A stretch of 41,998 nucleotides of DNA from Acidaminococcales bacterium (GTDB lineage: Bacteria; Bacillota; Negativicutes; Acidaminococcales; JAISLQ01), in contig JAISLQ010000063.1 of assembly GCA_031290885.1 (NCBI GenBank), positions 1 to 41,998 on the forward strand, read 5' to 3'. Each line of letters begins with the position of its first letter. The first letter of the stretch is position 1. Positions 6,942 through 41,717 of the stretch are shown one piece after another. Below the pieces are notes generated by a model. The model saw only the letters and a list, made by a program, of their open reading frames with translations. It did no database searches and was not told the origin of the DNA. Made by a program: the position numbers and the translations under genes.

Positions 6942-8441
<1,500 letters not shown>

Positions 8442-32169: not shown

Positions 32170-32610
32170 TTGAATCACGGAAATCAATTTTCAAAAGAAT
32201 ACGAGCCGTATTTTTGCGGCACGGAGGATGCAATCACTATCGTAATCGTAGGGACGTTCTGCGGATTCCGCAATTTGCAACAAATATACGAATGGGCAAG
32301 CCGCAAAAAAACATCCGCATGTCCGCGCCGGAAACTCTCCGTTGGCCACGTGCCCGGCTGCTATTGGTTAACGTGCTTGCCGAAGATGTTGGAGCCAAAA
32401 TCCCTGAGCGAATGTTTTACGAGAAGGGTTATGCCGCTTTTGCCGGAGAAAGCGGAAGGGTGCGCCGTTTCCTTCGATGGCAAGACCACATGTTCCACGG
32501 CAAATGCGCAGATTGAAACTGCTTCCCGCTTGGCAGTTACGCGAAATTTGAAAATTGATTTCCGCGCAACCGCGGCGAAACATCTTGCCAAGCGGACGGC
32601 GGCGTGTTAG
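32170..32610 (+). pseudogene. Degenerate ISAs1-type transposase fragment
   Basis: The translated frame contains EDAITIVIVGTFCGFRNLQQIYEWA, then GHVPGCYWLTCLPKMLEPKSL, then LPEKAEGCAVSFDGKTTCST, the N-terminal order of ISAs1 (H-repeat) DDE transposases. The first catalytic Asp would be in SFDGKT. After CST the similarity stops; inserting one base in the run near 32500 would restore GKM, the expected next residues, so a frameshift is likely. The remaining two thirds of the transposase are absent. No terminal inverted repeats were found. Confidence 0.6.
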
Positions 32611-33065: not shown

Positions 33066-36000
33066 ATGCGTAATGTAGCTAAATTCAAGAAGAAATCGCG
33101 GCACCTGCCCTTTGGTTTCCCGAGCGGCGAAACTGCGTTCCCCTGGCCGGGAGCGCGGCGGGCGGCGGTTTTTTTGTGCGCGGCCGGCCTTTTGGCTCTG
33201 TCCGCGCCGGCGTACGCGGGAACGGTAACCCAATCTGCCGAAACCAGTACGTCCACTCCGGGCGATTTAAGAGATGCCGCATCCTACGGCAGCGCCGTAA
33301 CTTTCTCCGTCCCCGGCGTTATGTTCGCCCATGACGCTGCCGCCGTTTCAGTTAACGCCGGCATAACAGTCATCCGCGGCGGCTTGATCAGCGGCTTCAT
33401 GACAAGGATCTCTTCCCTCAACGCCGACATCCTGCGGCAGGCCGACCTGCGGACGGACACGGCGTTAAGCAGCCTTACGCTAAACAGCGATGTTTTACCG
33501 TTTGCCCAGCCTGCCCTGACCGCCGGCATGACCTATATCAGAGGCGACGAAACTCCTAGAACATTGGGCTTACCTCCTTTTAATAACGCCAGATGGCTGA
33601 CCATCGACAATAAGCTGAATTTAGAAAACCTGCATTTTGATGCGGTAAAAATCACAAACGAATTTGACTCCGTTTCCGCCGGCGGCATGACCAACGGGCT
33701 GATTGGCAATACAAGCAGCCACACGAATGATATAAAATTCGGCGATCTTACCGGTAACGCCTTTACCGGCATAGACATTACTTTTATTGGGCACGAAGAT
33801 ACGCACTATCTGGCCGGCGGCGGGTTGATCGGCTTTCGGGCGACCGGCGAGTCAAGTCCGCCAAGTGCCTCGGTTGATGTCGGCGACATAACCGGCAATG
33901 TTTTTCGCGGCATAAAAGTAACTACCACCTTTTCAATCTCAAACCCTACCGAAAGCGCCTATCTTGAGGGCGGCGGGCTGATCGGCTTGGACGCCGTGTC
34001 TTCGCCGTCCAATGTACCGGGGCACGCCCTGCTGCAATCACTCAATTACAACCTTTTCACCGGTATAGCAATAGATTCCGGCGACATCATCCTCGGCGGC
34101 GGCTTGGTGGGCGTCAACAACAACAGCCGAGATATTGGCGGCAAAGATGTTACCTATGCCCGGATAGTTGACGTCAGGGGCAATGTCTTCGGCAACAACA
34201 ACCTGGGCGACATCACGGTCAAGGCCGGCTATTCCCTGCGCGGCGGCGGCGTGCTCGGTATCAACGGCCTCTCTAACGCGGCCGTTAAGCTGGACTACCT
34301 CGCCGACAACATCTTCGCCGGCGTGGCGGTGGATGTGGGCAGCTACCTGCGGGGCGGCGGCCTCGTCGGCCTCAACACTAATTACAATGACGGGAAAAGC
34401 CCTGATCCCGGCCCCGACCCTGATTATCCCATCAATGCGTCCACTGGTTCGGTTTACGGCAACCTTTTCATCAACAGCAGCGTCGCTGTCGGTACCCGCG
34501 ACAATGGTTCCGGCGGCTTTTTGGGGGGAAACTTGGAGGGCGGCGGGGTTGTTGGCCTGCGTTCCAACGCCGGTTATACGGAAATGCTCTCTTTGCGGAA
34601 CAATATTTTTTACAACTTGGATGTAACGACACACGCGGAAACCTCACCTACAGCCTCACTATCCAATAAGGGCGACTTGCTGGGCGGCGGCGTGGTCGGC
34701 CTGTCATCCAAACAATATGTTACCTTGGACACTGCGGACAACAACTGGTTTAGCGGCATCAACGTCGATATCGGCCGCAATCTGTTCGGCGGCGGCCTGA
34801 TAGGTACTTATGCGGAGAAGCAGGCGATTAAAGGCGGCGCCGACTCAATTATCGGCGCCCTGGAAAACAACACTTTCCGTGCTTCTCGTGTCAGCGCGGC
34901 GGAGAGTCTGCGCGGCGGCGGCGTAGCCGGCGTTTATGCCACCGATACTGTTAGCGCGGGAAACGTGCTCGCCGGAATCGGATTCTTTTCGGGCAATCTT
35001 TTTTATGACGGCATAGAAGTCAAAGCCCGCGACCTCACCGGCGGCGGCGTGGTCGGCGTCTACTCCAATGACGGCGGTGCCGCGATCTTGAGCGTGCAAA
35101 ACAACGTGTTTGGGGACAAAGACTCGTTTGGCGCCCTGAAGGTAACAACGGAGCGGTACATCGCTGGTGGCGGCGTATTGGGCGTTTATTCCGGCAATAA
35201 TATCGCCTATATCAATGAAATCGCCGGCAACGGCTTCTTTGGCGCGCAAATTACCGCCGGTACCTACATCGATGGCGGCGGCCTTATCGGGGCGACCGGC
35301 TTAACCGGCAGTGCCGCCGGGCATGGCCTCGGCCTTTTGAACCGCAATGCTTTCGTCGACAATGAGGTTACGGCGGAAAACGGGCAAATCATGGGCGGGG
35401 CAGTCTACAGCTACGGGTTGGCCGCTCCCTTGGAAATCAGGGACAGCGAGTTCAGAAACAATACTTTTACATCGGTCGTGAATGACACCTCCCTCAAATA
35501 CGACACAATTCCCTCCGCCAAAGTTTACGGCACGGTTACCGTGGATACCGGCCTTGATTTAGGTGCGCCACATACCAATGCCCTGACCCTGTCCGCCACC
35601 GCCGGCAAAATGACGTCCTTTGTGAACAATGGAATCGTTGAACACAACGGGCCAGGCCCCATCCCCACTGTTCCGACGCGTTACAACTCCCTGTATTTCG
35701 GCGTTGTTGACGGCTATACCACCGACGACAGTACCGGCAATATCGCAACAGTCCCCGATGCCGCCGATTCCGACGCGGCGCTCATCGTCCAAGCCGAAGC
35801 CGGCGGCGTGGTGCTCCTTTTTGACCCCATCGCGGTAAATCAGAACAATGGCAAAACCTTTAGCATGCGGGTTACAGGCAATGGTGTGTTTCTATGGGGC
35901 GGGGACAACACCTTCGCGTTAGATGGCGCGAACGGTACCGTCGCCCTCGAAGGAGGCAGCAACACCGTCTTTATTAACAACGAGCTGTCCGGCAATCGGG

Positions 36001-37469
36001 CGTTCACGCTCGATGGCGGCGGCGGCAAAGCCCCCTTCGCCTTTACGCTCAACTCCGGCGCGGCGCTCCTGGTCATGGGTTACAACAAAATGAATGTTAG
36101 CAGCGCAAATTTCGCGGGCAATGTTACTTTCAACATTGATAACGGCGATGGCTTCGGCAAGCTTTCCGCGCTCGGCGACGATAGCGGCGCAGCATCGGCC
36201 AGCGGCGGCGCCCTCCTCGCCTTTACCGATCCTCTGGCAAACAATGTCGATGTAACCGGAGCCAAGGTGTCTTTGAGCAACTTCCGGGCCGGCGACCCGC
36301 TCACGATGGGCGATGTCTTCTACCTGATGGACACCGGGGCAGGCAATGCGCAGGTAGCCGGCGCGGACGCGCTGACGAACGACCAAAACCAAAGCGGCCA
36401 GTACACGGCCTACGCCCGGCAGGGCATGACCCGCGGCTACAACTTTATCATCGACGACAAACCGGACGGCACGAACCGCAGCCCATACCTCGTCGCCCGC
36501 CTTTATAGCAGCGGACCCGCGCCGGGGGCGCGCATTATCAACGAAGGGCGGATCGCCGGCCTGGCCTTCGTCAGCAACAGCGCCGGCTGGCTGGCCGACC
36601 ACAGTTACGAGTCGGCCGACCTTAACATCCGGGAAAAAGAGGGCGGCTGGGAATACGCCAGCTTCGGCGGCGCGGATGCCGGCTGGCAGCGCATTGAGAC
36701 TGGTTCCCACCTCGATCTCGCTTCCAGCCACCTCATGTTGGGACGGACGGCCAAACGCGTCCGGGAGGACGGCTCGCTTCTTTACGGCGGCTTTGTGGAC
36801 GCCGGGTTCGGGCATTACAGCGCCCGGGGCAACTTCGGCGACGATGGGCGAGTCAGCGGCCGGGGGAACCTGCGGGCGGTCGGCCTGGGCTTTATGACCC
36901 GCCGCGTGCGCCCCGACGGGCTGCGGCTGGAAGCGTCCCTGCGCGGCGGGCTGCTCGAGAACCGTTTCCGGTCCTACGAACTGACCGACGTGGACGGCAA
37001 CATCGCCCGCTATGATGTCCGCGTCCCGTATTTTGGAGCGCATATCGGTATCGGCAAGGAGAAGAAGCTCAACGAGAAGGATACTTTCGACCTTCTCCTT
37101 CGTTACTACTACGCGCGGCAAAACGGCAAGTCCATCACGCTTCACACCGACGAAAGGGTGGACTTTGCCGCAGACGATTCGCACCGGCTGCGGCTGGGGA
37201 CGCGTTTCACCCGCAAAAAAAACGATTATCGTTACTGGTATGTGGGCGCGGCGCTCGAATATGAGTTTGCCGGCAAGTCGCGCGGGGTCGCCGATGGGCA
37301 GTACCGACTGGGCGAGCCGGACATGGGCGGCTTAACGGGCATCGTTGAGGTGGGCGGCATCGCCAAGCCAAAACCTGACAGCCGTTTCTCGGCCGAATAC
37401 GGCGTACAGTTCTACGCCGGCAAACGCGGCGGCTTGTCCGGTGGGATAAGGCTGTCTTGGGCGTTTTGA
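33066..37469 (+). CDS. Autotransporter (type V secretion) with GGG-repeat passenger
   Basis: 1467 residues; ATG at 33066 with AAGGGG. The signal sequence is unusually long: about 32 polar residues precede the hydrophobic core AAVFLCAAGLLALSAPAYA, with cleavage near residue 51. The passenger holds twelve clear and one degenerate copy of a unit centred on GGG(L/V)(I/V)G between about residues 248 and 775. Units average 44 residues and often end NxFxGI. This suggests a beta-helix. Residues 1190-1467 form an autotransporter beta-barrel (GGWEYASFGG to the end), finishing LSWAF with the terminal Phe required for barrel assembly. Ligand or host target cannot be read from sequence. It lies beside decayed mobile DNA and may have been acquired. 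Confidence 0.92.
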   Translation: MRNVAKFKKKSRHLPFGFPSGETAFPWPGARRAAVFLCAAGLLALSAPAYAGTVTQSAETSTSTPGDLRDAASYGSAVTFSVPGVMFAHDAAAVSVNAGITVIRGGLISGFMTRISSLNADILRQADLRTDTALSSLTLNSDVLPFAQPALTAGMTYIRGDETPRTLGLPPFNNARWLTIDNKLNLENLHFDAVKITNEFDSVSAGGMTNGLIGNTSSHTNDIKFGDLTGNAFTGIDITFIGHEDTHYLAGGGLIGFRATGESSPPSASVDVGDITGNVFRGIKVTTTFSISNPTESAYLEGGGLIGLDAVSSPSNVPGHALLQSLNYNLFTGIAIDSGDIILGGGLVGVNNNSRDIGGKDVTYARIVDVRGNVFGNNNLGDITVKAGYSLRGGGVLGINGLSNAAVKLDYLADNIFAGVAVDVGSYLRGGGLVGLNTNYNDGKSPDPGPDPDYPINASTGSVYGNLFINSSVAVGTRDNGSGGFLGGNLEGGGVVGLRSNAGYTEMLSLRNNIFYNLDVTTHAETSPTASLSNKGDLLGGGVVGLSSKQYVTLDTADNNWFSGINVDIGRNLFGGGLIGTYAEKQAIKGGADSIIGALENNTFRASRVSAAESLRGGGVAGVYATDTVSAGNVLAGIGFFSGNLFYDGIEVKARDLTGGGVVGVYSNDGGAAILSVQNNVFGDKDSFGALKVTTERYIAGGGVLGVYSGNNIAYINEIAGNGFFGAQITAGTYIDGGGLIGATGLTGSAAGHGLGLLNRNAFVDNEVTAENGQIMGGAVYSYGLAAPLEIRDSEFRNNTFTSVVNDTSLKYDTIPSAKVYGTVTVDTGLDLGAPHTNALTLSATAGKMTSFVNNGIVEHNGPGPIPTVPTRYNSLYFGVVDGYTTDDSTGNIATVPDAADSDAALIVQAEAGGVVLLFDPIAVNQNNGKTFSMRVTGNGVFLWGGDNTFALDGANGTVALEGGSNTVFINNELSGNRAFTLDGGGGKAPFAFTLNSGAALLVMGYNKMNVSSANFAGNVTFNIDNGDGFGKLSALGDDSGAASASGGALLAFTDPLANNVDVTGAKVSLSNFRAGDPLTMGDVFYLMDTGAGNAQVAGADALTNDQNQSGQYTAYARQGMTRGYNFIIDDKPDGTNRSPYLVARLYSSGPAPGARIINEGRIAGLAFVSNSAGWLADHSYESADLNIREKEGGWEYASFGGADAGWQRIETGSHLDLASSHLMLGRTAKRVREDGSLLYGGFVDAGFGHYSARGNFGDDGRVSGRGNLRAVGLGFMTRRVRPDGLRLEASLRGGLLENRFRSYELTDVDGNIARYDVRVPYFGAHIGIGKEKKLNEKDTFDLLLRYYYARQNGKSITLHTDERVDFAADDSHRLRLGTRFTRKKNDYRYWYVGAALEYEFAGKSRGVADGQYRLGEPDMGGLTGIVEVGGIAKPKPDSRFSAEYGVQFYAGKRGGLSGGIRLSWAF

Positions 37470-38034: not shown

Positions 38035-38111
38035 GACTCCGTAGCTCAGTTGGATAGAGCGTTTGACTACGAATCAAAAGGCCGCAGGTTCGAGTCCTGC
38101 CGGGGTCGCCA
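38035..38111 (+). tRNA. tRNA-Arg (anticodon ACG)
   Basis: A complete cloverleaf of 77 bases including an encoded CCA. The acceptor stem pairs GACTCCG with CGGGGTC, the D arm contains AGCTCAGTTGGATAGAGC, and the anticodon loop is CTACGAA, giving ACG. The T arm is GCAGGTTCGAGTCCTGC. The discriminator base is G. ACG is expected to be deaminated to ICG and read CGU, CGC and CGA. Confidence 0.97.
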
Positions 38112-38165: not shown

Positions 38166-38230
38166 TTGTGAAAATTGCTTGCACCACAAAATACCCGCAA
38201 AATATTTTTTGTGGATACTATCGAAAGCAA

Positions 38231-39148
38231 TTAATATTCGCTCTTGCATGCTTTATCTGCGCATCTTTCCAGCCGGTTTCTCGTGTCCTTGTCCAGCGCG
38301 TCTGTCCACCTTTGGGGGATTGTCCGCGCTCCATACAACGCGCCCGCGAGTCCGCCTGTAATTGCCCCTATGGTGTCGGCGTCGCCGCCGAGGTTCACCG
38401 CCTGTATCAGCGCGCCCTCGAAACTGGACGTGTCCCGTATGGCGTTTATGGCGCATACGAGGCTGTTCAGGACGTACCCGTCCGGGCGCGGGCGCTCGTT
38501 GTCCGGCGCCAGTTCCCGTACACGCCTCATGCGGTACTCTATACGCTCTTTGCTCCAGCCAATCCCAGCGTCCGGGATTTTATCCGCTCCGATAATGTCC
38601 GCAACTGCTTCGGTGTATGCTATGACCGAAAGCGTGCTGTCATCATGCCAATGCGTCATGCGCCCAATAGCCGCCGCCGCTATCCGGGCGCTCTTGCGTC
38701 CGTACCAAAGCGCGGGGTAAATGGTTCGCATCAACGCGCCGTTGCCTGCCGTCATGCCGTTGGTGTCCGCGTGGACGCGCCGCGCGGCTTCGTGCCAGCC
38801 GTTCTCGTCCTGCGCGCCGTTTGCTTTCGCGTAGGCAATGGCGCTGCGGCAAGTAACGCCGATATCCTTGGGCCGGCTGTCATACCATTCGACAAACCGC
38901 CGCCCGATTCCGGGTATCGGGTCTTGCGGGTTTTCAACTATTCCTTCCGCGACGGACAGCGTCATCTGCGTGTCGTCGGTTATCTCGCCGGGCATGACGT
39001 TCAGCCAGCCGCCGCCAATCATTTCGCGCACGGTACCATGCTTTGCCCGTATCTCCTCCGCGCTCATGAATTCAAGCGGCGCGCCCAGCGCGTCTCCCAC
39101 CGCTACGCCCAGCAAAGCGCCAAGTATCTTATCCGGGCTTTTTTTCAT
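38231..39148 (-). CDS. ADP-ribosylglycohydrolase (DraG) family protein
   Basis: 305 residues from the ATG at 39148, chosen because AGGTG lies eight bases upstream; earlier in-frame ATG codons at 39154 and 39166 lack a proper site. The all-helical binuclear-metal fold is shown by LGVAVGDALGAPLEF, the metal motif ITDDTQM (residues 56-62), NGALMR and the C-terminal GGDADTIGAITGGLAGALYG. Family members remove ADP-ribose from Arg or other acceptors on proteins or nucleic acids, or hydrolyse related compounds. The start lies inside the preceding small gene, so the two are translationally coupled in the amidoligase operon. No ADP-ribosyltransferase is visible. Confidence 0.92.
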   Translation of the reverse strand: MKKSPDKILGALLGVAVGDALGAPLEFMSAEEIRAKHGTVREMIGGGWLNVMPGEITDDTQMTLSVAEGIVENPQDPIPGIGRRFVEWYDSRPKDIGVTCRSAIAYAKANGAQDENGWHEAARRVHADTNGMTAGNGALMRTIYPALWYGRKSARIAAAAIGRMTHWHDDSTLSVIAYTEAVADIIGADKIPDAGIGWSKERIEYRMRRVRELAPDNERPRPDGYVLNSLVCAINAIRDTSSFEGALIQAVNLGGDADTIGAITGGLAGALYGARTIPQRWTDALDKDTRNRLERCADKACKSEY

Positions 39149-39371
39149 CGCCATCACCTGCCTCATCTTGTAGCAGCCCAAGGTCGCGCATATGCTTTTC
39201 CAGCGCCTCGTTGAAAAAATCCGAGCGGCTGTATCCTTTGTTTTTTCGCTGCCTTTCTGCTACGTATTCATCCATCGCGTCCAGCAAACTTCCGGCGATA
39301 TAGCAGTTTATGCCTATGCGTCGGTCTTTGCTTTTTTTGGGCCTGCCGAGCGATTTGGGATCGGTCTTCAC
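39129..39371 (-). CDS. Small ribbon-helix-helix-like protein
   Basis: 80 residues from a GTG at 39371 in a GTGA overlap with the stop of the preceding gene; GGGGACTTGGAAA lies upstream. The basic N-terminus (SLGRPKKSKDRR) is followed by IGINCYIAGSLLDAMDEYV and GYSRSDFFNEALEKHM, the strand-helix-helix pattern of Arc/MetJ-type DNA-binding proteins. It probably represses its own operon. The tail after residue 68 is acidic and overlaps the next gene by 20 bases. An antitoxin role is possible, but no toxin is recognisable among the neighbours. Confidence 0.65.
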   Translation of the reverse strand: MKTDPKSLGRPKKSKDRRIGINCYIAGSLLDAMDEYVAERQRKNKGYSRSDFFNEALEKHMRDLGLLQDEAGDGDEKKPG

Positions 39372-39859
39372 TTTCCAAGTCCCCCCATCATTTTGCTATA
39401 GGTTTCTTCAAGCGCGGCTTTTAGCGGCGCGCTGGGAATGCGGTTTTGCCGGAAGCCCTCCATAATCCCTTGGTAATACAGTTTCGAGGGAAGCGCTGGT
39501 TTGCTGTGCGCGGCGGTCATGACGTAAGCCATCGCCCTGTACGGCGTTCCATCCTCGGCATAAACCGTGACCTTGCGCTTTTCATACAAATGCGGGTAGC
39601 CCTCATATCTGTCGAGGCTTTGTTCACATTCTGGCGTAATCGTCCATAAGAGGCCGTTAACAACCTTGCCGCGCTTATGTCGAATGTTCGCCACCCCCCA
39701 GTTGCTTGTCTTTCCGTTGAGTTCAAGCGCGTAGTTCAGTAATATGGCCGCGCCGACAACTGCCGCCCTGGGGCAGCGAACTGCCATCTGATCCAGATGG
39801 CAGTTGCTCCCGTATGCGAAATAGTAACGCTTTGTTTTTGCTCTTGTTGTGTTATTTAT
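39368..39859 (-). CDS. AIG2/gamma-glutamylcyclotransferase-like protein with apparent ATA start
   Basis: Protein similarity begins at RYYFAYGSN, the defining N-terminal motif of the GGCT/AIG2 fold. It continues with LLWTITPECEQSLDRYEGYPHLY, where the Glu in DRYEGYP (E86 here) is the expected catalytic base. The first ATG, at 39787, lies after YGSN and would destroy the fold. Upstream of the motif the frame has no ATG, GTG, TTG or CTG before a stop. An ATA at 39859 lies six bases after AGGGAGGG, a near-perfect ribosome-binding site, giving 163 residues. It may be a true rare start, or a lost ATG. Such enzymes cyclise gamma-glutamyl amines. It lies next to an amidoligase gene, a pairing known in bacteria. 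Confidence 0.8.
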   Translation of the reverse strand: MNNTTRAKTKRYYFAYGSNCHLDQMAVRCPRAAVVGAAILLNYALELNGKTSNWGVANIRHKRGKVVNGLLWTITPECEQSLDRYEGYPHLYEKRKVTVYAEDGTPYRAMAYVMTAAHSKPALPSKLYYQGIMEGFRQNRIPSAPLKAALEETYSKMMGGLGK

Positions 39860-39861
39860 GC

Positions 39862-40116
39862 TTAGCCCTCCCTGTCAAAATGCCATGCGCCGATTTCCGA
39901 TATCGCCTCAAACATCGCTATCGCCCGCGCCTCGATGTCGCCTTTGGGTAATTTCAGTTTCTTGCCAATCATGCGTTTGTAAGTGTCCTCTTGGATTGCG
40001 ATATAGCCCTCTGCGTCGGTGTCGGGCTTCACGCCCCAGTTCATGTCTTTGATTTAATCAATCAATGCGACCGCCGTCGCGCCGTAATGCTCCCGGTCGT
40101 CAATAATTACTTTCAT
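39862..40116 (-). pseudogene. 84-codon small gene interrupted by in-frame TAA (or two ORFs)
   Basis: An ATG at 40116, with GGGGG eight bases upstream, starts MKVIIDDREHYGATAVALID and reaches an in-frame TAA at 40056-40054. The same frame then continues for 63 more codons to 39862, including ATG at 40044 and ending EIGAWHFDREG. The second part has only a poor ribosome-binding site of its own. I recall small proteins beginning MKV(I/V)(I/V)DD next to amidoligase genes in Firmicutes, which favours one original gene split by a nonsense change. The function is unknown. The alternative is that the 60-residue downstream frame is translated separately. Confidence 0.55.
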
Positions 40117-40151
40117 GGCATTGCCCCCTTTGTTGTTTACCTTGGCCGCCC

Positions 40152-41114
40152 TCAAGCGAGGGCGGCTGTCATATTGTTGCTTGCTATGGTAGCGGGGTGC
40201 GTCGGGTAACGCTCCGGCGCAAACCTCCACGCCGCGTTGCCGTCAAGGCGCTTCAACAAATGCTCGCGGGTGTTGGCAAACTCGTCGCCTATCAGCCCAA
40301 GCCGCAAAAGCCAAGTGCGGAAAGTGAATTTTTCGTTGTCGCTTGCCGTTTTGGTTAACTGCGTCGACTTCTGCCGCATTGCCTGTGCGCTTATGGCAAG
40401 CGCCAGATGTACGTAGGCTTTTACTTCCCCGGCGTGCAAGGTGCTGTTGAAAAGCCTGAACTCTACGGTCTTTTTGCTGGATGTCGCGTGCAGGTTCAGC
40501 GCATGGTAGCGGCTCGGCGCGTAGTGTTCGCCGGGATTGTCGCGATAGTCGTTTTTATCGTACCATATCGCCTTTAGGCTATCCAGAGTGAGATTCTTGT
40601 CTTTTCGCGCTGCCAGCAAAACGCTTTCGCGGGTCTTTTTGCAGTATCTGACACGGTCGTCGCTTACCCGCAAGGCTTTGAAAAGCAAATCTTCTTTGCC
40701 GTACATAATGCCGAGCAGGTTTCGCAGGCTCTTGGCGGTGTGGTTCGTTGCGTCAACATGGATGTGTATGCCGCAACTTCTGTTCACTTTTGCTCCCGCG
40801 TGGCGTACTTGCCGCACTATCTCCTGCACCGTAGGCAGTTCGTCGTAGTGCAGTATCGGGCTTACGACTTCGACGCTGTAGCACTTATCGGTGATCGGAC
40901 GATATTGCTTTTTATCGTATTTGCACTCCTTATCAATGCTTGCGTCACTCATCACCTTCCACTTTCTGCCCTGCCAGTCACACACTTCGTATGCGTTGTA
41001 CGCGCCGCCGATGTATGTTTCCGTTGCGCCAAAGTGCTTTGCTATCGTCTTTGCTGCTTCCTCGCGGGTTACCCCGGTCATTTCAATCTCAATGCCAAAA
41101 TTCTGTTGCTTCAT
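40152..41114 (-). CDS. Amidoligase family protein (glutamine-synthetase-like COOH-NH2 ligase)
   Basis: 320 residues from the ATG at 41114, which has GGAGG upstream. An in-frame ATG at 41162 lies before the expected transcription start and is rejected. The N-terminal FGIEIEMTG (G7, E9, E11) is the first metal/ATP motif of the amidoligase family. VEVVSPIL and the SCGIHIHVDA motif (residues 113-122) follow, as does the C-terminal VEFRLFNSTL block. These enzymes are predicted to form amide or isopeptide bonds between a carboxylate and an amine. Substrates are unknown for this type. It is the first gene of a five-gene operon with a GGCT-like partner that could cleave or cyclise its product. Confidence 0.88.
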   Translation of the reverse strand: MKQQNFGIEIEMTGVTREEAAKTIAKHFGATETYIGGAYNAYEVCDWQGRKWKVMSDASIDKECKYDKKQYRPITDKCYSVEVVSPILHYDELPTVQEIVRQVRHAGAKVNRSCGIHIHVDATNHTAKSLRNLLGIMYGKEDLLFKALRVSDDRVRYCKKTRESVLLAARKDKNLTLDSLKAIWYDKNDYRDNPGEHYAPSRYHALNLHATSSKKTVEFRLFNSTLHAGEVKAYVHLALAISAQAMRQKSTQLTKTASDNEKFTFRTWLLRLGLIGDEFANTREHLLKRLDGNAAWRFAPERYPTHPATIASNNMTAALA

Positions 41115-41162
41115 CCTTGTTCGCCTCCGTAGTTTTTTGCCTTGGCTGCTTTCGTTACCCAT

Positions 41163-41191
41163 ATTATAATTAGGCGCAATTATAAAGTCAA
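41163..41191 (-). promoter_or_regulatory. Near-consensus promoter of the amidoligase operon
   Basis: On the minus strand TTGACT (41191-41186) and TATAAT (41168-41163) are 17 bases apart. Transcription would start near 41156, leaving about 42 bases before the ATG at 41114. Confidence 0.8.
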
Positions 41192-41242
41192 TGGCTTTTG
41201 GTTAAAAATTCATATTTTTGCCAAAAATATTAGCGCACAAAA

Positions 41243-41290
41243 AAAGAAAAAACCTCTTGCGATTGGCTTAGGCAAGAGGGTTTTCTTTTT
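41243..41290. terminator. Bidirectional rho-independent terminator
   Basis: CCTCTTGC (41253-41260) pairs with GCAAGAGG (41272-41279) around an eleven-base loop. It is preceded by an A-rich run and followed by TTTTCTTTTT, so it works in both directions. It closes the small-protein unit that ends at 41296. Confidence 0.85.
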
Positions 41291-41295
41291 AAATT

Positions 41296-41541
41296 TTACG
41301 GATTTTCATACTTTTTAATAAAAACTTCCGCTGCCGCCCGGTCGCCTTTTTTCACTATGCGCTCAAAGGCTTTGATAAGTGCCCATTCGTCCTCGAAGGC
41401 TCTCATCTGGGGGCGCTGCGGGCGCGTGGGGCGCGGTTCTTTTTTCGGCCCCCTTGTCCGCGGTGAACTATCCTTAGAACCCGATTTCCTGCCCGCTCCC
41501 GCTCTTGCGCCTCCCCATCCGTCTTTAGTACCGTCTTTCAT
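41296..41541 (-). CDS. 81-residue basic protein with GGARAGAGRK motif
   Basis: ATG at 41541; the start overlaps the end of the upstream membrane peptide gene by 17 bases. The N-terminus, WGGARAGAGRKSGSKDS, is the glycine/arginine pattern seen at the start of many small phage and plasmid proteins. A basic, proline-rich stretch follows, then a helical C-terminus (FEDEWALIKAFERIVKKGDRAAAEVFIKKY). The last part could be an interaction helix. I do not recognise a specific function. It ends just before the bidirectional terminator. Confidence 0.65.
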   Translation of the reverse strand: MKDGTKDGWGGARAGAGRKSGSKDSSPRTRGPKKEPRPTRPQRPQMRAFEDEWALIKAFERIVKKGDRAAAEVFIKKYENP

Positions 41542-41692
41542 ATACGGCTAACCCCACGATAATCAACTCACCTGCTGCCAACAGCCCTATAAATGCCGCT
41601 TTTGCCGCATTTATGTCCCAATCGATTTTGCTGGCCAAAAAAGATATTACAATTAAATTAAGTATAGTGGATATCGCTTGCCTTTTTGACAT
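41525..41692 (-). CDS. 55-residue two-span membrane protein
   Basis: An ATG at 41692 has a perfect AGGAGGT ribosome-binding site. The peptide begins MSKRQAISTILNLIVISFLA, has a second hydrophobic segment (AAFIGLLAAGELIIVGLAV) and ends YERRY. Two spans and positive ends resemble small holin-like or plasmid membrane proteins, but no family is recognised. It is translationally coupled to the basic protein at 41541. Confidence 0.7.
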   Translation of the reverse strand: MSKRQAISTILNLIVISFLASKIDWDINAAKAAFIGLLAAGELIIVGLAVYERRY

Positions 41693-41717
41693 TTTTCGCA
41701 CCTCCTGCTATAATGTA

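Follow-up and report, generated by a model that had tools for sequence, protein, structure and literature searches.

A conserved operon, probably a prophage moron, that joins an amidoligase-GGCT pair to a DraG-type ADP-ribosylglycohydrolase

Why an amidoligase, a gamma-glutamyl cyclotransferase (GGCT)-like enzyme and an ADP-ribosylglycohydrolase should be encoded together behind one promoter is the question raised by a locus in an Acidaminococcales bacterium. The window, by which we mean the whole stretch of 41,998 nucleotides that was analysed, is contig C63 (JAISLQ010000063.1), one of the 85 contigs into which the 2.13 Mb genome is assembled, and it ends 836 bases past the amidoligase gene. 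An initial annotation, made from the sequence alone, had proposed that five minus-strand genes form a mobile operon whose products complete a cycle: a gamma-linked amide is made, then trimmed, and an ADP-ribose or similar group is removed. The operon is real and recurs in divergent loci; as we read it, it is probably a prophage moron joining two modules that protect or modify the lysogen, at one end of a prophage whose remainder is cut off where the contig stops.

Amidoligase, GGACT/AIG2 and ADP_ribosyl_GH domains all lie closely spaced on the minus strand (Pfam search and list of open reading frames, ORFs), within five tightly packed genes in the order described initially: amidoligase (40152-41114, 320 amino acids), a conserved small ORF (39862-40116, 84 codons), a gamma-glutamyl(amine) cyclotransferase-like enzyme of the GGACT/AIG2 type (39368-39859), a small ribbon-helix-helix (RHH)-like protein partnering DraG (39129-39371) and a DraG/ARH-type ADP-ribosylglycohydrolase (38231-39154). 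The GGCT and RHH genes share 4 bp (GTGA, 39371-39368) and the RHH and DraG genes about 20 bp, as had been noted. Relatives were sought by a genome-wide scan with a DraG alignment and by a scan of viral contigs. The full gene order recurs in Clostridiales Mx356_bin60 (locus L098) and in Clostridium sp. Iy174_bin59 (L105), and a viral contig (L002) has the same order with DraG cut to 56 codons; DraG thus stands beside the amidoligase beyond close relatives and not only in this genome. L098 and L105 come from metagenome-assembled genomes (MAGs) of Clostridia; from isolate names alone, a termite-gut origin of the MAGs is suspected, on which no paper was found. Between the window and each of these three loci, proteins are 54-78% identical, with dN (non-synonymous divergence) of 0.14-0.36 and dS (synonymous divergence) of about 1 or saturated. 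Since dN is far below dS in all genes, purifying selection is indicated, and one gene order kept across four divergent loci at such low dN goes beyond chance.

The near-consensus promoter of the initial annotation was also borne out. It is of the sigma-70 type (TTGACT-17-TATAAT, 41191-41163, minus strand) and matches the consensus at 11 of 12 positions. An equivalent promoter occupies the corresponding place in L105 (5202), L002 (5966) and L098 (175), and because the surroundings have diverged this conservation is much stronger evidence than the consensus match alone. A strong hairpin terminator with a T run lies directly upstream of the promoter (41238-41290, minus strand; −18.2 kcal/mol, z −4.7) and has counterparts in L105 (z −4.1) and L002 (z −6.2); it is predicted to insulate the operon from the phage-like genes upstream. 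In L098, a terminator was found downstream of DraG. The sequence TACCGAAAGCAA follows the −10 box immediately, in perfect form in L105 (5236) and L098 (210) and in imperfect form in the window (41146). It is a candidate operator through which the RHH-like protein may regulate its own operon; none was seen in L002 at the stringency used. A near copy also occurs at 38219, directly downstream of DraG and on the opposite strand.

The distribution of the genes makes the operon look like two cargo modules joined under one promoter. The viral comparison set comprised the 79 other best amidoligase loci (L140-L218), with gene content read within the stretch available around each: a GGCT-like gene was present in 78 of them and DraG in none. 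Conversely, an RHH-like homologue occurs near DraG in 17 contigs without amidoligase in the examined stretch, mostly in the reversed order (DraG, then RHH). In several of these contigs (L007, L009, L100, L102, L236 and L237) the pair lies between endolysin or holin genes and integrase or host genes, the integrase domain being confirmed for L102. Amidoligase relatives were detected in 12 of 63 genomes of the same taxonomic order; there, DraG matches show distant similarity (E about 1e-7 to 1e-12) and lie elsewhere in the genome. Looser associations also occur: L225 carries an RHH-DraG and an amidoligase-GGCT pair ~3 kb apart on opposite strands, and in L243 a GGCT gene directly precedes a more distant DraG. 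L105 has an additional Fic-domain gene (7054-7800; PF02661, E = 3.3e-20) between GGCT and RHH, indicating that the cassette takes in further protein-modifying enzymes. The two halves occur separately much more often than jointly, which argues for two modules and speaks against one closed chemical cycle; the proposal that DraG acts on the ligase product is therefore not upheld.

The amidoligase (Amidoligase_2, COOH-NH2 ligase superfamily) is recognized by PF12224 (E = 2.6e-68, 231 bits) and phrog_2443 (2.7e-92). The gene call stands, but not the start first assigned to it: the ATG at 41162 and the −10 box overlap, which puts this ATG outside the normal 5' part of the transcript. The correct start, at 41114, is preceded by GGAGG and matches the start in the relatives. 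The motifs GIEIEMTG, D-x-S, EVVSPIL, GIHIHVD and EFRLFN are kept and are invariant over 22 relatives; no loss of active-site residues was seen, and the predicted fold fits the carboxylate-amine ligase superfamily. The AlphaFold2 model (mean predicted local distance difference test score, pLDDT, 91) matches the glutathione synthetase GshF, glutamine synthetase, YbdK, gamma-glutamylmethylamide synthetase and the Pup deamidase Dop with E of 8e-5 to 6e-3 and low TM-scores, from which the fold is predicted to be that of the glutamine synthetase/GCS (GS/GCS) superfamily of ligases. Enzymes with this fold typically make gamma-glutamyl amides. Separately, contig C58 of the same genome carries an amidoligase-like gene of 22% identity (L091, 2715-3779) near terminase, portal and capsid genes, and in many phages a divergent amidoligase-like copy stands in tandem with a full-length amidoligase.

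The cyclotransferase is assigned by PF06094 (E = 5.9e-15) and by a profile search that matches human GGCT structures; both the YFAYGSN motif, with the YGSN loop, and DRYEG, with the catalytic Glu, are present. Enzymes of the GGCT type split off gamma-glutamyl groups in the form of 5-oxoproline. Its pairing with amidoligase, rightly called a known one, is known from phages and prophages, and GGCT genes of this type are classed as moron or auxiliary genes in PHROGs. A start near 39859 is required to include YFAYGSN, and the codon there is ATA, as against ATG in three relatives; the next listed ATG (39787) would drop the catalytic YGSN loop. The small ORF presents a second irregularity. It had been described as split, and it does lie between the amidoligase and GGCT genes, but the two ORFs are one gene, broken in frame by a TAA (40056-40054) at a codon where relatives have Glu or Asn. 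The intact products of L105 (84 amino acids), L098 (84) and L002 (97) each align across both halves. The gene is intact in L105 (6284-6538), L098, L002 and L177, with distant intact versions in L140, L147, L160 and L205, and the L105 protein is modelled at pLDDT 93; the model had no match in the PDB, and the family no significant match in Pfam or PHROGs. A subset of phages carries a member of this family between their amidoligase and GGCT genes. The TAA and the ATA could each stem from genuine damage, from variation in the population or from sequencing error; given both, the full pathway may not be expressed in this genome.

The 80-amino-acid RHH-like protein is present as described, but its RHH identity is weak (Pfam 0.18-0.19, below the cut-off; PDB-profile match to the MazE6 antitoxin, 0.015), and no homologue was found in the named phage collection. 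DraG is assigned by PF03747 (E = 8.1e-64) and, in a profile search, by the Rhodospirillum rubrum DraG structure 2woc (9.6e-43), with which E27, T58-T61, T166-H167, D257, D259 and T260 align; the TDDT, GGDxDT and Glu metal ligands and the TH motif are kept. It is 71% identical to the L105 DraG. The protein scores below the equivalog cut-offs of both TIGR02662 (ADP-ribosyl-dinitrogenase-reductase hydrolase; 201 versus 337 bits) and NF041672 (ADP-ribosylarginine hydrolase Tri1; 135 versus 490 bits), and the Pfam search revealed no ADP-ribosyltransferase domain in the operon.

That the genes are part of a mobile element was a fair proposal, most likely a prophage, but no insertion sequence adjoins the operon: the sole transposase trace is a degenerate fragment about 6 kb off (32170-32610; DDE_Tnp_1_assoc, 1.1e-05, below the cut-off). 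The terminator-promoter-cargo arrangement, together with the placement of L002, gives a moron layout. The own promoter and upstream terminator are shared by the window, L105 and L002, and placement among prophage genes was seen for L002 and L105 only: in L002 the cassette comes after an endolysin gene and stops next to host guaA, and in L105 it follows an amidase-type endolysin. A tRNA-Arg gene (ACG, 38035-38111, plus strand) is a chromosomal neighbour of the operon, as stated initially, but integration into its 3' end is not supported. Homology to a genome of the same genus covers the tRNA and continues 63 bp past it, so that the boundary probably lies outside the tRNA, at about 38175-38230; a search of the host genome for a repeat of the tRNA 3' end as attachment site matched only other tRNA genes. 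Two contigs were considered and rejected: C42 as the missing neighbour, its endolysin match being a false lead on a contig of housekeeping genes, and C58 as the remainder of the prophage, since it holds a prophage of its own in which a shortened amidoligase-like gene lies by the terminase.

Upstream of the terminator and outside the operon, the minus strand carries a small phage-like ORF with a WGGARAGAGRKS motif (41296-41541) and a small hydrophobic, holin-like ORF (41525-41701, from its sequence alone); neither matched a family in Pfam or PHROGs. A plus-strand promoter match at 41686-41714 (perfect 12/12, with extended TG) is antisense to them. On the other side of the operon, positions 33066-37469 encode a 1467-amino-acid autotransporter-like repeat protein with no Pfam match. 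At L002 830-3403, the ORFs suggest a likely diversity-generating retroelement, in which a large candidate target gene is followed by a reverse transcriptase.

If the operon is a moron, its cargo would be expressed in the lysogen from its own promoter, insulated by the terminator. The amidoligase, GGCT and the accessory small protein would form an amide of the gamma-glutamyl type and then trim or reverse it; the macromolecule that bears it, of host or phage, would most plausibly be a surface or protein target, and the effect would be to keep out other phages or alter the host. The RHH-like regulator and the DraG/ARH hydrolase would form the other module, stripping ADP-ribose added to macromolecules by outside enzymes, which may be toxins of competitors or anti-phage ADP-ribosyltransferases. 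This functional reading combines two published views. Phage amidoligase-GGCT pairs from prophages are predicted to act in superinfection exclusion, perhaps via alteration of the cell surface (PMC11253131 and PMC11318856, both citing Iyer 2009), and ADP-ribosylglycohydrolases (ARGs) without a linked ADP-ribosyltransferase are read as acting on extrinsic ADP-ribosylation (PMC9503650). A target shared by the two modules is possible, though less likely. Several observations weigh against the moron reading. The window stops before any phage structural gene and contains neither an integrase nor an attachment repeat (relatives L002 and L105 do lie in prophage settings), and the rest of the prophage was not found among the host contigs, where the L002 baseplate protein also had no match. 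With its interrupted small ORF and ATA start this copy, possibly damaged in this genome, may not work in full. A new pathway is not demonstrated.

The reading closest to the initial one, in which ligase, GGCT and DraG act successively on a single protein or small molecule, draws on the shared operon order in the window, L098, L105 and L002, the overlapping genes, the Fic enzyme of L105 as another protein modifier and the precedent of phage-linked R2K ATP-grasp ligases flanking an ADP-ribosylglycohydrolase, an arrangement read as pointing to protein targets (PMC4431377). We nevertheless hold it to be unlikely, the halves being far commoner apart and the RHH and DraG genes standing in reverse order in most other phages. 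Another reading is rather improbable in our estimate: during lysogeny the prophage would control how a key host protein is modified; the ligase of the GS fold, with the small protein as adaptor, would attach an amino acid or peptide to that protein, and DraG (in L105 also the Fic AMPylase) would edit its other modifications. More serious, if still doubtful, is the suggestion that the locus is a decaying remnant in which the small ORF is dead, GGCT is translated poorly or not at all, and only amidoligase, RHH and DraG are useful, if any are. The TAA and the ATA, set against intact relatives, and the missing remainder of the prophage fit such decay, which is compatible with the moron reading and does not exclude it. 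Set against decay, amidoligase, RHH and DraG are intact, and downstream of the TAA the small-ORF frame keeps 78% identity to L105 (dN 0.14), so that the damage would be recent, or else a sequencing error or population variant.

Two further readings concern the DraG module by itself. As NifH is present in two of the hosts, we considered whether DraG might serve as an auxiliary metabolic gene, its product restoring host nitrogenase activity by taking ADP-ribose off NifH. NifH-like proteins are encoded by the window host and the L105 host, that of the former (L276 3154-4011, contig C72; 423 bits to PF00142; beside a nitrogenase-component-like gene) keeping the GCAGRG arginine motif, and the nearest solved structure is the nitrogenase-reactivating DraG. 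Yet the TIGR02662 score falls short of its equivalog cut-off, the L098 host lacks a strong NifH and no DraT was detected in any of the three hosts (a search run without a positive control), which makes this role very unlikely. We give least credence to RHH-DraG as a toxin-antitoxin-like addiction pair, despite a small DNA-binding-like partner with a resemblance to MazE6 adjoining the enzyme in prophages: in characterized systems, hydrolases of the DraG type act as antitoxins or reversers rather than as toxins (PMC9503650), and none of the five operon proteins matched a PADLOC defence model.

Among known systems, the phage amidoligase-GGCT cassette (phrog_2443 and phrog_2520; Terrisporobacter phage TPDSL_ph1, C. 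clostridioforme prophages, Ca. Heliusvirales phages) comes closest, with the same two families in the same order and probably the same prophage setting. That of Ca. Heliusvirales adjoins terminase genes, whereas the window cassette forms a cargo end with its own promoter and continues with RHH and DraG, which the 79 other best viral relatives lack. In BtrJ/BtrG-type pairs of butirosin synthesis, a ligase adds and a GGCT-like enzyme removes a gamma-glutamyl group; the ligase fold is a different one, and no biosynthetic cluster is present at the window operon. The domain and metal-site motifs of the window DraG are common to DraG/ARH hydrolases such as R. rubrum DraG and Tri1, from which it differs by its sub-equivalog scores and by the absence of a partner ADP-ribosyltransferase. 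The R2K.2/ARG/R2K.3 set (Burroughs 2015, PMC4431377) likewise has an ADP-ribosylglycohydrolase amid peptide ligases in a Firmicutes and phage context, but its ligases are ATP-grasp enzymes, whereas that of the window has the glutamine-synthetase/GCS fold and is accompanied by GGCT.

Phage amidoligase-GGCT pairs and phage DraG were each already known; in a limited search of the open-access literature we found no report of the two in a joint operon. The operon offers a lead on what the widespread phage amidoligase-GGCT pair acts on, a question that has stood since the pair was predicted in 2009. The intact homologous operons of L105 and L098 form a compact set suited to cloning and assay. Following the R2K ATP-grasp ligases, to which it is unrelated, this is a second, independent phage peptide-ligase operon with an ADP-ribosylglycohydrolase, and it strengthens the view that such ligases take part in conflict at the level of proteins and not in the metabolism of small molecules.

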